Notes: generated by a model from the letters alone, not told the origin. 55,411 nt of DNA from Thermodesulfovibrionales bacterium (GCA_030019415.1 JASEEX010000009.1:1-55411), one strand, 5' to 3'. Positions 2,393 through 8,833 are shown, counted from the first letter of the stretch. Numbers and translations are program-made.

Positions 2393-3415
2393 TTAAAAAG
2401 ATAGCCTGGATTTAATAACTCCATAAACCTTCTCTGCAGACAAACTCTTCATGCACTTAAGATCATTGCATTTTTTCCTGAAGCATGGTGAGCATGTTAG
2501 ATCTTCTCTGATAATTATATGGCCTTTTCCGTAAGGGCCTGTTCTCATTGGATCTGTAGGCCCAAAGATGGCAAAGACAGGAATGCCGAGGGCAGCGGCA
2601 ATATGCATCGGGCCTGAGTCATTGCTTACTACAAACCGTGCACTCCTTATCACCTCAATTAATTCCTTCAGGTCTGTCTTCCCGGCAAGAGATATCGACT
2701 TCCCATTTGAGAGAGTTATAATTTCATTTGCGGTACTCATATCTCCTTTGCTTCCCACTATCGTTGTACGTAGAGGCAACAGTGATGAAAGTTCTCCAAA
2801 TTTCTCCGGAGGCCATCTCTTTGTCTTCCACCTTGCACCAGGAACCATGACAGCGTAATCTCTGGCGAGTGATGAGTGATGAGTGATGAGTGATGAGTTA
2901 GAAGACAGCGGGAAAGGAAAGCACACATCGGTTATATTACATCCGAGAGAATGTGCGATCTTTAGATATCTATCAACGGCATGAATATCCCTCCCACCTT
3001 TAACCTTATGGGTATAGAAAAATCTGCTTCCCTCTCTTGCCTCTTTAAAACCCACCCTTAGAGGAGCACCTGTCATCATAGTAATGATGCCACTTCTGAG
3101 AAGTCCTTGAAGGTCTACGACAATATCAAAATGTTCTTTTCGTAATTTCCTGAAAAGGGTATGGAGTTCTTTAAATGAATGAGGAATATGAGTTGTCTTT
3201 TTCCACATATCCTTATTGATCAACCAGACCTTGTGTATCATTGGATGGCCTGTGAGAAGACCTTCCAGTCCCTTTGCAACAACCCAGTGAATCTCTGCCT
3301 TGGGAAATCGCTCCTTCACCGCATTCAGAAATGGCAGGCTATGCACCACATCACCGAGCGAGCTTGGCTTCACGATAAGTATTTTTTTAGGTGGTTTCCT
3401 TCCTATATTTGCCAT
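2393..3415 (-). CDS. Glycosyltransferase family 9, lipopolysaccharide heptosyltransferase (WaaC/WaaF-like)
   Basis: 340 aa. GT9 enzymes transfer L-glycero-D-manno-heptose from ADP-heptose to the LPS inner core at the inner membrane. Seen: the N-terminal KPSSLGDVVHSLP donor-side motif (about 16-28), and the C-terminal NDSGPMHIAAALG and FGPTDPMRTGP motifs of ADP-heptose transferases. The late Cys cluster (CSPCFRKKCNDLKCM) is common in this branch. Start ATG at 3415 overlaps the end of the restriction gene fragment by 13 bases. Odd: a run of four GAGTGAT heptamers (2867-2894) inside the gene encodes SSLITHHSSL. Whether it is heptosyltransferase I or another GT9 cannot be settled here. Confidence 0.88.
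   Translation of the reverse strand: MANIGRKPPKKILIVKPSSLGDVVHSLPFLNAVKERFPKAEIHWVVAKGLEGLLTGHPMIHKVWLINKDMWKKTTHIPHSFKELHTLFRKLRKEHFDIVVDLQGLLRSGIITMMTGAPLRVGFKEAREGSRFFYTHKVKGGRDIHAVDRYLKIAHSLGCNITDVCFPFPLSSNSSLITHHSSLARDYAVMVPGARWKTKRWPPEKFGELSSLLPLRTTIVGSKGDMSTANEIITLSNGKSISLAGKTDLKELIEVIRSARFVVSNDSGPMHIAAALGIPVFAIFGPTDPMRTGPYGKGHIIIREDLTCSPCFRKKCNDLKCMKSLSAEKVYGVIKSRLSF
2867..2898. repeat. Heptanucleotide tandem repeat (GAGTGAT x4 plus partial) inside a coding sequence
   Basis: Four exact copies of GAGTGAT (2867-2894) and a partial fifth (GAGT). The unit is not a multiple of three, so gain or loss of one copy would shift the frame of the heptosyltransferase. Confidence 0.9.
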
Positions 3416-4716
3416 ATTCTGTCAATCTCTTTTTGTATTTCTATTGTCAAAGCTATGGCAAGGATAATTTTGAAATATTTCTGTTTCTCTTCAAGACTTA
3501 AGGGTTTTCCTTTTCTGTCTTTCAGAAATTTTTCTAAGACCTGATAACTTCCGATATGATAATTCCAGACATCTTCTGGGACATTGTCAAAATACTGTTC
3601 TTTATTAATATAAACCTTGCCATTCTGGTATTTGACCCTTTCCACTTTGTCGCTGCCAGTAACAGGATAACCGACTGTGATTGCAGATTGCAGATTTGAG
3701 ATTTCGGATTTTAGTAAATGTAAATCAACGAGTCTTTTGCCGAGATTTGACAGCATTTTAAATGTTTTTTGATTTTCAGGCAGAGGGATTCTTGGAAGAT
3801 CTATTTTTAAAAATTCCTGATACCTTGCTCTATATGTTGGTGAGTAAAGCACAGCGTAGATGTAATAGAAAATTTCCTCTGGAACAGGTTCATAACCAAG
3901 GGAATCTCTAATAGCAGTTAAAAATTCGGGTTTAAAGTTGGGCATTCTTTGAGAAGTTTGCATGTGTATCAGTTTGTCACCCTGAACCCTGAAAGTGTCA
4001 TTCTGAACTTGTTTCAGAATCTCTTCAGGGCAGGCTTGTTTCAGGGTCTCTTTAGATGCCGAAACAAGTTCGGCATGACTGAAGGGGTAGAGGTAAAGTG
4101 GGAAAAAGTAATTTTGGTCACCAATTAGATGTATATCACTAACATTACTACAAATAAAAGCTGAAACACTGAATACTTCTGGCATTCTTCTTGTTGTAGT
4201 CAATCCAAGATTACCACCGAAGAAATTCTTCATCAAATCATACCTAGCGCACCCTCTATCAATTAAATCCGTGCAATAGCAGATATATCTCTGGTCAAAT
4301 GCTCTATAAGCATAAGGAATTATCAAATCTTTCCAATGGACAGCTTTTAGTTTTGTTCTTGCATCAGAAAGTTTCCAATCCCTTGTATCCTTCAACTTCA
4401 AGCTTTCCTTTACTGTCTCATCATCCAATGTTCCTGTAAAGATCCGCATCTTGTTTGCCACTTCTTGCCTTGTAAAGCCCACAATAAAATGGTCTCTATG
4501 AGTCTTGACACCACTGCTGAATTGAATAAAAATATTCTTAACTGACCAGAAACCCTCATGCTCCTCTTTTAACGAAAAGTCTTTTGGCACAAAGAAATAA
4601 TAAGGCTCTGTAAGGGTTAACTCCTTCCAATCAACAGTAGCGACATCGTTTGTTTCAAGGAACCTGTATTTATCCTCTCTCTTTCCCCAGAGGTCTTTGT
4701 AGAAAAGTTTTGGCAT
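3403..4716 (-). pseudogene. Type ISP restriction-modification enzyme, C-terminal part (target recognition) separated from its N-terminal part
   Basis: 437 aa. It begins MPKLFYKDLWGKRE, the sequence that in single-chain relatives follows the methylase domain and opens the C-terminal target-recognition region (Type_ISP_C-like). It lacks methylase and nuclease motifs of its own. The matching N-terminal half is 600 bases upstream on the same strand (5325-7181), and a hicBA pair lies between. The fragment may be expressed from its own ATG (4716), giving a two-polypeptide enzyme, or may be dead. A palindromic repeat is inserted in frame at 3976-4086 (SHAELVSASKETLKQ...). Overlaps the downstream heptosyltransferase start by 13 bases. 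Confidence 0.75.
3976..4086. repeat. Interspersed palindromic repeat inserted in frame in the restriction gene
   Basis: The DNA carries nested inverted segments (GCCGAAACAAGTTCGGC at 4048-4064; TTCTGAACTTGTTTCAGAA at 4001-4019). It translates as a low-relatedness insert containing AELVSASKETLKQ and EILKQVQND. I know this peptide pattern from translated interspersed repeats in many bacterial genomes. The reading frame is kept through it. Confidence 0.7.
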
Positions 4717-4721
4717 TATCT

Positions 4722-4961
4722 TTACTTTTTTCTCAACTCTTCAAATTCTTCTATTGTCAAACCTGCTGATGCTAATATTGACTTCAATGTCTTTCTCTTA
4801 ATGATTTTTCCAGAATGAATTGGCACATTGGTGCGTCTTTTGTCTTCTGCCCTGTAGTAAATTGCATGGCTACTACCAGATTGCCTTTTAAATCTAAAAC
4901 CTACTTTTATTAGTACCTTTATAACTTCATCAGAAGTAACTGCTGGAAATTTTGTACTCAT
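4722..4961 (-). CDS. hicA: HicA-family mRNA interferase toxin
   Basis: 79 aa, a usual HicA (YcfA) length. HicA has a dsRNA-binding-like fold and cleaves mRNA and tmRNA; HicB neutralises it. Seen: TSDEVIKVLIKVGFRFKRQ, then GSSHAIYY with the catalytic His of the G-S-H motif, then VPIHSGKIIKRKTLKSIL, all typical. It follows hicB on the same strand after 76 bases, so the antitoxin is made first. Stop at 4722-4724, six bases before the ATG of the restriction fragment. The pair sits inside the type ISP gene. Confidence 0.9.
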   Translation of the reverse strand: MSTKFPAVTSDEVIKVLIKVGFRFKRQSGSSHAIYYRAEDKRRTNVPIHSGKIIKRKTLKSILASAGLTIEEFEELRKK

Positions 4962-5037
4962 ACTGCAACTTTACCACATTTTTGTGAAGTGTTCTGGCAG
5001 ATGAGTTGAATATTTTGGACTGTTGGCAACTTTTGAA

Positions 5038-5271
5038 TCATACAGCTACTTTGAGGGATGTGATTGTAACCTCATCCTCAGGCAGAGGTTCATTCTCTTC
5101 CAAATAATCTGCTATAAAGGCTTCAATGGCTTTTTTCATCTCGTTAATGGTTTCTTCATAAGTCTCGCCTTCAACATGGCATCCTGGAAATGCTGGGCAC
5201 ATTGCAAAGTAACCACCCTCTTCACAGGGTTCAATTATTATCGTAAATCTGTATTCTTTCTTTTCAATCAT
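5038..5271 (-). CDS. hicB: HicB-family antitoxin
   Basis: 77 aa. HicB has a degraded RNase-H-like fold that blocks HicA. Seen: EYRFTIIIEPCEEGGYFAMCPAF-type start with a GGYFAMCPAFPGCHVEGET core, then an ETINEMKKAIEAFI helix. It is the short form without a C-terminal DNA-binding domain, so autoregulation may need another factor. Strong AAGGAGG six bases upstream of the ATG at 5271. Paired with hicA downstream; the pair interrupts the restriction gene. Confidence 0.9.
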   Translation of the reverse strand: MIEKKEYRFTIIIEPCEEGGYFAMCPAFPGCHVEGETYEETINEMKKAIEAFIADYLEENEPLPEDEVTITSLKVAV

Positions 5272-5324
5272 CTTTCCTCCTTATACAATACGACCCTATT
5301 GTTAATCGAATTATATCTTTTTTA

Positions 5325-7181
5325 TTATAGCTTCACAAACAACCCTATCGCCACGCCCTGTTGAATGTTAAAGACATTTTCATCTGTGACACCATTTGGC
5401 GGTTTCTCTCCTGTCCTGCTATTTCCATGCAGATTGAGTATGTAAATCTCATCAAATGAATTAAAAAGTCTTTTACGCATGCCTCTATGAATGAGACCGC
5501 TCAGATATGAATTGTTTGTTATAAATCCTACTATGCCCTTTCCTGTTTTTTCTATTTTCCATTGTGCAAAACGCAAAAACTTTATATAATCATCACTCAA
5601 CGGCTGGATATTACGTTCATCTTTCACATCTCTTTTATAATCTTCCATTAACTCCTCAATGAATGGAGATTTATTATCTGAAGAGACCGAATATGGAGGA
5701 TTTCCCATAATTACAAGCACAGGCACCTCCTCTTTCACCTTATGTGCCAACTCACCTTCTTTTGCAAGGTCAATTAAAAAACTTCCCTGTTTAGGTATTT
5801 CCATATCAAGGGTATTTGTAAGGAAAAAATTGAATCTCTCTTTAGCCGATAAGCTGTATCCCATATCCTCGAGAACAAGAGATGCCTTGAAATGACCAAT
5901 TACATAGGGTGCAATAAGAAACTCAAAGGCATAAAAGTTTTTAAGGACATGTTCTTTAACAAGCGAAGGGAATATACCTGTCTTACCTGACAGGTCAAGC
6001 TCATTTTTAATAAGTTTTATAGCCAGAGTTGGAAATGTCATTGTACCAGAAGCAGGATCGAGAATTATAACTGTTGAATCTGCAAGTCCTTCAGCTTTTC
6101 CGAATTTCTCTTTAAGCAGATTATTAACGGATTTGACGATAAAAGAGACAACAGGTGGGGGTGTATAATATACGCCAAGCTTCTCACGTTCAGATGGATT
6201 ATAGACCGAAAGAAAAGTCTCATAAAAATGAATAACAGGGTCATCAATCCACCTCTCAGTATGAAGTTCTTTGTGAATAGCGACAATATCAGTATTTTCT
6301 AAGACGCTGGCGATGTCATCCACAATCCATTCAATAGATTGGGGCAGATTAGGTCCTGTTAGGAAATAAAAAAGACTTTTTAGTAAGGGAATTGTAGATG
6401 GTATATTTTGATATGCTGTAAGCCTTGAAAACTTTTGTTCTGAAAATCCCCCCTTACCCCCCTTTGCTAAAGGGGGGATGGGGGGATTATGAAATCTCAT
6501 TCGTGATGAGAAAAGTCCATAAGCTATGGTCTGGCTATACATATCAGAAAATTTTTCTTCTGTTAAAGATGGCATTAGATTATTTTTAAAGGCTTCATAA
6601 AAGCCCCTTAAATCAGCGTTACCCTCTTTGATTTCTTCCGAAATAAGAAATTGTAAAAGCCTTGTTTTTTTTGCAAGTTCAATTGCAAGGACTTTAGATG
6701 TGGTTATTGCCGGGATAGAGAAAGATAGAAATTTTTCAAAAAGTAGTTTAACTACCTCCAGGTTTTTTATGCTTTTTGGTATTTTTACTTCGATAAAAAG
6801 GGATTTTGCATCTGTAAGCCTCACAGCATCTATAAGCTTTCCATCCCTGTATAGATGAAATTCAAGGAAATTTGTAAGGATAAGATTAGGTAATGATTCC
6901 CTGTATCTTTTAAGCTGTTCTGATTCAGCTATGCCATAAAGGTCTTTTTCGTCAGGATGCTTCGCCTCAATGTAACCTATTAATTTCTGGCTTTTATCTT
7001 TGATTAGAAAATCAGGGATACCAGCTATATTTTTCTTCGGCTGTGCAATTATGGATATAAAATCACCAAAAGACGTTTCCAGAAAGTCCTTTAAAGCAGG
7101 ATAATAACTCTCTTCTCTTGCCTCTCTGCTTGAATAAAGGGTGTTAATAGTTTGTAAATAAGTTTTGTAGATAGTCTTCAT
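5325..7181 (-). pseudogene. Type ISP restriction-modification enzyme, N-terminal part (nuclease and N6-adenine methylase domains)
   Basis: 618 aa. Residues about 1-110 hold a PD-(D/E)xK nuclease-like region (GIPDFLIK then IGYIEAKHP). The methylase follows with motif I LDPASGTMTF, and motif IV NPPYS in VIMGNPPYSVSS. The protein stops at GVAIGLFVKL, where single-chain relatives run on into a YxDLWG segment, now found at the start of the 3403-4716 fragment. So the gene is broken exactly between catalytic and target-recognition parts, with hicBA in the break. An in-frame palindromic insert at 6445-6488 encodes NPPIPPLAKGGKGGF. Whether the halves still cooperate is unknown. Confidence 0.78.
6445..6488. 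repeat. G/C-tract palindromic repeat in frame (PPL-KGG type) in the restriction gene
   Basis: CCCCCCTT and AAGGGGGG arms around TTGCTAA, with flanking C and G tracts; translated on the minus strand as PPIPPLAKGGKGG. A second copy of the same family is at 8063-8107 in another gene. This is a widespread dispersed repeat in bacterial genomes. Confidence 0.8.
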
Positions 7182-7246: not shown

Positions 7247-8833
7247 TTACCCTTTCTCACTGTCCCTTATAATAAAATCAACAGCCTCTGTAATGTTCTT
7301 AGCAATAAAATCAGCATATACTGATTCCTTTGCCGCTCCCGTCCTGACCAGTATTCCTTTCGCACCGACTGCCTTTGCAAGAAGCATATCCGTTTCTTTA
7401 TCTCCTACTACATAGGATCTCTTAGGGTCAATCCCTTGCTCAGCCCTTGCCCTGAGAAGCATCCCTGGTTCTGGTTTCCTGCAGGAACAATATTCTTCAG
7501 GATGATGCGGACAGTAGTAAAAATCGTCAAAGTCATATCTTTCGATAAAAATCTTGTTTACTTCCCTTACGAAATCTTCTTCAATAATCCCTCTCGCAAT
7601 ACCAGATTGATTGGTGACCCCGATAAGTTTGAAGCCTCTTTCTTTAAGAAGCGTTATACTATCGATATCTGTAAAAATCTGTAAGTCATCATATTTATTA
7701 AGGTAACCCACATCTCTGCATAAGGTCCCATCCCTGTCAAAAAACACTGCAGGCCTGTTTGGTAATAATTTCTTTATTCCGTAATAAACGTCATCTGAGG
7801 TTATCGCATACATACATCTCATGTCATTACTCTTACAAGTGCGTTCAAAACAAGGGCTGCATGAAAGGTTAGGGGACATCACCACATTGCTATATCCAAC
7901 AGGGCCTGTTAATTTAGGGTCTGTGGAGCCAAATATTGCTACCAGAGGAGTCCCAACTGCACAGGCAATGTGCAGCGGGCCTGAATCATTAGTAACAAAA
8001 ACATCGCATTCTGAAATCAGTGAAGTAAGCTCTCTAAGGGATGTCTTTCCTGTCAAATTTAACACCCCCCCTTCTTGCCCCCCCTTGTTAAGGGGGGGAT
8101 GGGGGGGTAAAGTCTTATTTGACTGTTGCCTCCTGAAAAGATATTCTATTTCCTGTGCAATATCTACTTCATTCCTGCCTCCAAAAATTACCACACTCCC
8201 ATTGGTATCCTTTATAAACCAGTTCGTGACCTCAGCAAACCTCTCTGGGAACCATCTTTTGGCTGAACCGTATGTTGCTCCAGGATTGATTCCTACGATT
8301 GGCCTTTTCATATCTTGCAGGAATTTCCTTGCAGACAATCTTTCATCAAGGGAGAGATATATGTAAGGCTCTGAATATTCTGCCTCTACTCCTATCTGCT
8401 TAAGAAGGTTGAGATAATAGTTAATTTGATGTACTTTCCCCTCATCTTGAGGTACAGAGACTGCTGTTGTCAGAAGAAAGCCTCTGCCATCCCTGTCATA
8501 TCCTACTCTTTCCTTTATTCCTGCGAGAAATGTAATAAAAGCTGCATCAAAGGCATTTTGAAACAGAATGGCACTTGAGAAACCTTTTTTATTAAGCATC
8601 CTTGAGAGCTTTACCTTGCCGATTATGCCTCTGTATTCAGCACCATAAATAATTATTTCATCCACATTCGGATCCTTTTCAAAGATCGGCGATACCCAGG
8701 GTTTGACAAGGAGGGAGATTCTTGCTTCAGGCATGGCCTTTCTCAAGACCCTTAATGCAGGAAGGGTCATAACAGCGTCACCTATCCAGTTAACACCCCT
8801 GACCAGCAGGTTCTTACAAGATTTATGAAACAT
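7247..8833 (-). CDS. Fusion: heptosyltransferase (GT9, WaaF-like) + D-glycero-D-manno-heptose 1,7-bisphosphate 7-phosphatase (GmhB)
   Basis: 528 aa, two enzymes of LPS heptose metabolism in one chain. Residues 1-350 are GT9: VRGVNWIGDAVMTLPALR at the start, later NDSGPLHIACAVG and FGSTDPKLTGP. From about 358 a HAD phosphatase begins, with FFDRDGT (nucleophile Asp366), GVTNQSG, the zinc-binding CPHHPEEYCSCRKPEPG loop of GmhB, and VGDKETDM. GmhB makes heptose-1-phosphate on the way to ADP-heptose; the GT9 part then uses ADP-heptose. A PPHPPLNKGGQEGG insert from a palindromic repeat (8063-8107) lies in the GT9 part. Start ATG at 8833. Confidence 0.92.
   Translation of the reverse strand: MFHKSCKNLLVRGVNWIGDAVMTLPALRVLRKAMPEARISLLVKPWVSPIFEKDPNVDEIIIYGAEYRGIIGKVKLSRMLNKKGFSSAILFQNAFDAAFITFLAGIKERVGYDRDGRGFLLTTAVSVPQDEGKVHQINYYLNLLKQIGVEAEYSEPYIYLSLDERLSARKFLQDMKRPIVGINPGATYGSAKRWFPERFAEVTNWFIKDTNGSVVIFGGRNEVDIAQEIEYLFRRQQSNKTLPPHPPLNKGGQEGGVLNLTGKTSLRELTSLISECDVFVTNDSGPLHIACAVGTPLVAIFGSTDPKLTGPVGYSNVVMSPNLSCSPCFERTCKSNDMRCMYAITSDDVYYGIKKLLPNRPAVFFDRDGTLCRDVGYLNKYDDLQIFTDIDSITLLKERGFKLIGVTNQSGIARGIIEEDFVREVNKIFIERYDFDDFYYCPHHPEEYCSCRKPEPGMLLRARAEQGIDPKRSYVVGDKETDMLLAKAVGAKGILVRTGAAKESVYADFIAKNITEAVDFIIRDSEKG
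8063..8107. repeat. Second copy of the PPL-KGG palindromic repeat, in frame in the heptosyltransferase-GmhB gene
   Basis: CCCCCCCTT and AAGGGGGGG arms around GTT, flanked by further C and G runs. Translated as PPHPPLNKGGQEGG between two GT9 secondary-structure blocks. Same family as 6445-6488. Confidence 0.8.

Follow-up and report, generated by a model that had tools for sequence, protein, structure and literature searches.

The stretch of DNA analysed here (hereafter the window) comprises 55,411 nucleotides (nt) from Thermodesulfovibrionales bacterium (GCA_030019415.1 JASEEX010000009.1:1-55411) and contains a restriction-modification (R-M) gene that is broken into an N-terminal half (N half) and a C-terminal half (C half), with a hicBA toxin-antitoxin (TA) pair lodged between them (Table 1). 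The four open reading frames (ORFs), all on the minus strand, bear out the original prediction that a complete hicB-hicA pair lies on the same strand exactly in the break, although the downstream junction is slightly tighter than was stated there, as the hicA stop precedes the ATG of the C half by 5 nt (AGATA) and not by six. At its other end, the C half extends 13 nt into waaC. Neither a target-site duplication nor terminal repeats were found at the hicBA insert, no transposase is present within it, and no further copies of it were found in the genome. None of the four proteins (N half, HicB, HicA, C half) matched an NCBIfam family above the limits of that family.

Table 1. Parts and borders of the split restriction locus, in window coordinates (aa, amino acids; pLDDT, predicted local distance difference test)
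Feature	Position	Strand	Size and content
waaF-gmhB fusion	7247-8833	minus	upstream border of the island
N half of restriction enzyme	5325-7181	minus	618 aa; Pfam PF02384 N6_Mtase and PF07669 Eco57I; PD-(D/E)xK nuclease (D57, E72, K74), helical connector, N6-adenine methyltransferase (DPASGT 375-380; NPPY 494-497); terminus GVAIGLFVKL, then double stop TAA TAA
Repeat-derived in-frame insert in N half (NPPIPPLAKGGKGGF)	6444-6489	minus	genome repeat family
DNA between N half and hicB	5272-5324	minus	promoter-like site and ribosome-binding site
hicB antitoxin	5038-5271	minus	77 aa; PF15919 HicB_lk_antitox 1.2e-8; matches HicB structures
hicB-hicA spacer	4962-5037	minus	76 nt
hicA toxin	4722-4961	minus	79 aa; PF07927 HicA_toxin 2.9e-18; GSSH motif
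C half of restriction enzyme	3403-4716	minus	437 aa; PF18135 Type_ISP_C, E 1.6e-84; last predicted methyltransferase-sheet strand (KLFYKD) and ISP-like target-recognition domain
Repeat-derived in-frame insert in C half (HAELVSASKETLKQACPEEILKQVQNDTF)	3975-4052	minus	predicted disordered, pLDDT about 31-47
waaC-like heptosyltransferase	2393-3415	minus	downstream border of the island

Relatives of the N half were collected in the GTDB contig set and in 296 genomes belonging to the phylum, yielding 49 with a located N half (L010-L058), of which 48 reach the seam, i.e. the point at which the two halves meet, and one (L053) stops short of it. The C half continues the N half in the same frame in all 48 seam-reaching relatives, from Nitrospirota to archaea, as had been claimed for single-chain relatives; among these, homologues that are naturally two genes were not seen, and only the window locus carries genes in the break. 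Likewise, no split was found among the IMG/VR relatives, where loci holding both halves form one continuous frame. Furthermore, both halves have the same nearest relative, the single-chain protein L041. Judging from these alignments, the gene appears to have been single-chain in its ancestry, and it is split in the window locus.

Most relatives have 3-9 residues between the aligned ends of the halves, while six have 28-35 and L018 has 13, and because such in-frame inserts occur there, the seam is a permissive place. Several of these inserts (28-35 residues in L024, L025, L027, L030, L032 and L033; 13 in L018) are repeat-like: the seam peptide SVIPARQESFLKKDAGQAGMTTK of L024, of which L030 and L033 have near copies, looks repeat-derived, and so does an FAKGGKG peptide in L018. 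In another genome (G331, C186; L133/L135) a single in-frame stop stands just before the seam (FNI*QGVAIAIF), representing either a pseudogene, read-through or a sequencing error.

A search of the class with the insert DNA retrieved a decayed copy of the split locus in G228, a genome that belongs to another family. Its contig C24 shows the syntenic order waaF-gmhB, N-half end, 8 nt, 3' part of hicA, C-half start and waaC; the N-half end (GTCTTTAACATTCAACAGGGTGTGGCAATAGAGTTGTTTGTG) is 93% identical over 42 nt, and the 3' part of hicA together with the C-half start (ATGCCAAAACTT) is 82% identical over 130 columns. The N-half body and hicB are missing from this copy, the 5' part of hicA likewise, and hardly any of the C half is left. 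In the genome sets searched, the arrangement recurs as this decayed copy, and no second intact split was found. As the window genome is a draft of 166 contigs, an error of assembly or binning that joined an unrelated hicBA sequence into the gene has to be considered, and misassembly at 4716 or 5325 had been named in the original prediction as a possible refutation. However, because G228 independently carries both junction regions, with N end, hicA and C start arranged as in the window and located at the syntenic place, and both halves share L041 as nearest relative, we regard such an artefact as extremely unlikely.

In 16 other genomes waaF adjoins waaC and no restriction gene was found between them; most of the gaps are shorter than about 50 nt, and no remnant was found in the gaps of about 105-220 nt that four of these genomes possess. 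Among the empty sites is G342, whose waaC is closest to that of the window (84%), so that the island is present in G228, the more distant of the two (waaC 66%), but not in the closer genome. Since the relic is 82-93% identical while the synonymous positions of waaF and waaC are mostly near saturation between the window and G228, and since the island is absent from G342, we take the locus to have been shared horizontally between lineages, at the waaF-waaC site, after the split had occurred; alternatively, the island may have descended vertically and been lost in G342. The split predates the divergence of the window and G228 copies, which amounts to 0.14 substitutions per site in total (Jukes-Cantor) and, with equal shares, to about 0.07 in each lineage. 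Towards the 3' end of waaF-gmhB, a patch (window about 7400-7720, compared with L167 of G228) reaches a third-position identity of up to about 0.8 and is a possible recombination tract.

The label Type ISP, under which the enzyme had been described, is dropped here because the superfamily 2 (SF2) helicase that LlaGI and LlaBIII bear (PMC4666363) is absent: by Pfam and PADLOC, the N half contains only nuclease, connector and methyltransferase regions and no helicase family, and the two halves together amount to 1055 aa, compared with 1578 for LlaBIII. Instead, both halves fit one PADLOC model, a fused IIG endonuclease-methyltransferase (REase_MTase_IIG, 3.1e-139), of which the best N-half stretch covers positions 3-496 and the C half 658-1065, and the best PDB fold match of a single-chain relative is DrdV, with a good local match and a low global template-modelling score (TM-score). 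With LlaGI and LlaBIII the window enzyme shares homologous methyltransferase and recognition domains, the latter evident from PF18135 and from fold matches to both proteins, but it has no SF2 helicase-like ATPase in the chain and is not a single polypeptide. As in Type IIG/IIC enzymes, the PD-(D/E)xK nuclease and the N6-adenine methyltransferase reside in one motorless chain, although this chain stops after residue 618 and the recognition domain is consequently not on it. By its domain content, we consider the enzyme to be a Type IIG/IIC enzyme with an ISP-like recognition domain and not a true Type ISP enzyme.

Helicase-less enzymes with ISP-like recognition domains are known from the Thermus TaqII/TaqIII family (PMC5587805). 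TaqII, TaqIII and TspGWI (PMC5587805), the TaqII likeness being taken from the description in that paper and not from an alignment, as well as DrdV (PDB 7lo5), resemble the window enzyme in possessing a nuclease, a helical connector, an N6 methyltransferase and an ISP-like recognition domain, in lacking a helicase, and in their total length of about 1050-1100 residues; they are one chain, whereas the chain of the window enzyme is broken and has a TA pair between its parts. An R-M chain with a separately encoded recognition chain is found in the Type IIB enzymes BsaXI and BcgI (PMC11997821). Their specificity (S) chain, however, has two recognition domains, whereas the C half has one PF18135 domain and hence does not match the two-subunit Type IIB layout, and the BsaXI R-M chain retains strand 8 of the sheet, whereas in the window the last strand is predicted to go with the C half.

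In a structure model of the single-chain relative L017 (mean pLDDT 75.7), the seam corresponds to a loop (residues 610-617) between two strands (602-609 and 618-623), which would pair as a hairpin. The C half modelled alone was predicted confidently except for residues 1-12 and the repeat insert, and its fold matches LlaGI, LlaBIII and DrdV. According to these models, the break lies inside the strand turn, the last strand of the methyltransferase sheet would be carried by the C half, and the N half would be expected to need this strand.

An enzyme of 1055 residues would as a rule be broken by an insertion, and the original prediction had offered disruption of a defence gene as one of its explanations, in which case the enzyme would be inactive, its halves young and still undecayed pseudogenes, and hicBA kept for itself. 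The occurrence of only one intact split among 230 genomes of the class and the loss of nearly the whole island by deletion in G228 are in line with such an account. Nevertheless, conserved residues, invariant columns, open frames and the ratio of C-half to N-half distances (C/N ratio) all lack signs of decay, which speaks against disruption. D57, E72, K74, DPASGT and NPPY of the N half are invariant across 20 aligned sequences and kept in the window. When each sequence was left out in turn, the window differed at 5 of 127 otherwise invariant columns in the N half and at 3 of 48 in the C half, within the range of the other sequences (0-10 and 0-4, respectively). With a C/N ratio of 1.17, compared with 1.32 +/- 0.21 for pairs of single-chain sequences, the C half in the window shows no acceleration. 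Finally, both halves are open, with no stops over 1055 codons, for which simulated neutral drift of both halves predicts 2.6 stops at 2% divergence (8% of runs stop-free), 6.1 at 5% (0.2%) and 8.3 at 7% (0 of 2000 runs); indels were left out of the simulation, and including them would strengthen the result. As judged by these four measures, simple disruption fits poorly, and with a split older than the divergence of the window and G228 copies we consider a young pseudogene unlikely.

The Type_ISP_C family was searched in 296, 176, 230 and 396 genomes (overlapping sets), and stand-alone C halves that stood out were checked one by one. Among these sets, only G160 has a stand-alone C half that starts at the seam behind a toxin gene: on contig C110 (L099 1584-3121) the C half begins MKAKVYHAEVWG and forms an ATGA overlap with the gene of a RelE/StbE-type (RelE/ParE) toxin (PF05016, 3.1e-14; TIGR02385 above cut-off). 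Upstream of this gene lies the end of an ORF, which may encode the cognate antitoxin, and the contig ends there; an N-half start sits at the edge of a separate contig (C87). Nearly all other stand-alone C halves considered as intact splits proved to be fragments, to lie at contig ends or to result from a simple in-frame stop (G331). In G188 (C34; L106 4807-6309), a gene for a PIN-domain (VapC-like) protein is found beside a truncated Type_ISP_C remnant on the opposite strand, adding a third type of toxin, here close to a recognition half that has decayed. The presence of two toxin families, hicBA and RelE/ParE, at one seam is suggestive, though not proof, of a preferred site. Rather tentatively, the turn at the seam might be a recurrent landing site of TA modules that gives rise to two-chain enzymes, whose recognition subunit would be translated only via the toxin gene, resulting in joint expression and inheritance.

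The hicBA pair corresponds to Class 2 HicBA (Gerdes 2024, PMC10865869) in its gene order, hicB before hicA, and in the size of its products, HicB having 77 aa (63-103 aa in this class) and no DNA-binding domain and HicA 79 aa; it differs in that the genes are 76 nt apart instead of overlapping and that the pair is lodged inside another gene. HicA matches 1whz (E 1.8e-6) and, weakly, the HicA structure 6g26, and its GSSH motif is shared by its relatives; ten HicA-like places occur in the genome, seven of them at or above the Pfam cut-off. In related pairs the hicB stop overlaps the hicA start and the 76-nt spacer is absent, whereas in the window the spacer repeats the junction between the end of hicB and the start of hicA (AAAGTTGCAGTATGAGT) and also holds a mini-ORF of 27 aa that joins hicB to hicA through two ATGA overlaps. 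This duplicated junction may have arisen when two hicBA copies recombined, and HicB and HicA may descend from two different parent modules. Ahead of hicB are a promoter-like TTGTGA-17-TATAAT at 5338-5310, with its -35 element within the last N-half codons, and an AGGAGG ribosome-binding site, both by consensus match only; the number of promoter-like sites (14 found, 12.4 expected) is not significant.

The nearest relatives of the pair are a hicB in G382 (80% nt identity) and pairs in G339, G154 and G325, and the stretches read around them contain no such restriction gene alongside. A close hicBA pair in G339 (C241; L156 1400-2060) separates livH from livM, and its hicA stop immediately precedes the ATG of livM; it is thus fitted into another operon as tightly as the pair in the window. 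The interleaving and dense packing of TA and R-M genes (the 5-nt gap and the 13-nt waaC overlap), together with the toxin of a different family that adjoins the seam end of the C half in G160, could point to an integrated guard, in which HicBA would monitor the expression or subunits of the enzyme and arrest growth upon its inhibition or loss, as PrrC does in Type IC systems. PrrC and PARIS are known guardians, and the RNase toxin gene prrC is similarly embedded in a restriction locus, EcoprrI (PMC12707154). However, PrrC is encoded by a separate gene of a multi-gene Type IC locus and responds to restriction inhibition, whereas the window TA pair splits one gene; moreover, HicB is without a DNA-binding domain (Class 2, PMC10865869), very similar pairs such as that in the liv operon occur without restriction genes, and G228 tolerated loss of the island. 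We judge an integrated guard of the PrrC kind to be quite improbable. The original prediction had also offered a layered defence locus, in which losing restriction would mean losing the antitoxin as well. Because the G228 relic shows that the locus can be lost, any such addiction would be leaky at most, and since hicB and hicA are adjacent, deletion tends to remove both toxin and antitoxin.

We favour gene fission as the probable explanation, by which a Type IIG/IIC enzyme would have been split by a Class 2 hicBA module, its halves reassembling as a two-subunit enzyme with hicBA as resident. In this scenario, hicBA inserted into the short turn that connects the two final methyltransferase strands; the first half then terminated at a stop immediately behind the final residue of its strand (VKL), and an ATG close to the conserved lysine was taken over as start codon of the second half. 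The C half would be translated from its own ATG, probably by reinitiation after the hicA stop, and thus be coupled to the toxin gene. The R-M chain and the C chain, the latter contributing the last methyltransferase strand and the recognition domain, would most likely reassemble into a working enzyme capable of methylation and restriction, while hicBA, presumably active as a TA pair, would persist between the halves and be co-expressed with them. The split locus would then have been shared between lineages at waaF-waaC and have decayed in at least one of them. Such an organization has precedents, as BsaXI and BcgI combine an R-M chain with a separate S chain (PMC11997821) and the M and S subunits of EcoKI tolerate both fusion and splitting (PMC6158711).

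Several points weigh against fission into a working enzyme. The proposed hairpin rests on the secondary structure of a model with a mean pLDDT of 75.7. A second genome with an intact split was not found in the searched sets, and because of this the ratio of non-synonymous to synonymous substitution rates (dN/dS) after the split is not measurable. The dating by the relic presupposes that a fair part of the divergence arose in the window lineage, and it would be weakened if this lineage were slow; at 2% neutral divergence, 8% of the simulations are still stop-free. Furthermore, each half contains a repeat-derived insert that could impair function: the one in the C half has an 88% copy elsewhere in the genome, the one in the N half more than 10 copies, and relatives are without either insert.

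Models of restriction-enzyme evolution propose movement between one-chain and multi-chain forms, which has been tested mostly by engineering. The components found here are of known kinds; their combination is an enzyme resembling Type IIG whose gene is parted in two by a resident TA module, and searches of the open-access literature by title and abstract turned up no earlier case of such a module within a Type IIG gene. The window locus thus apparently represents a natural fission caught with its agent, the TA module, still in the break, accompanied by a decayed sister copy that serves for dating and by empty sites in relatives. In addition, as the TA pair and the restriction enzyme are physically interlocked, mutual guarding between the two becomes directly testable.

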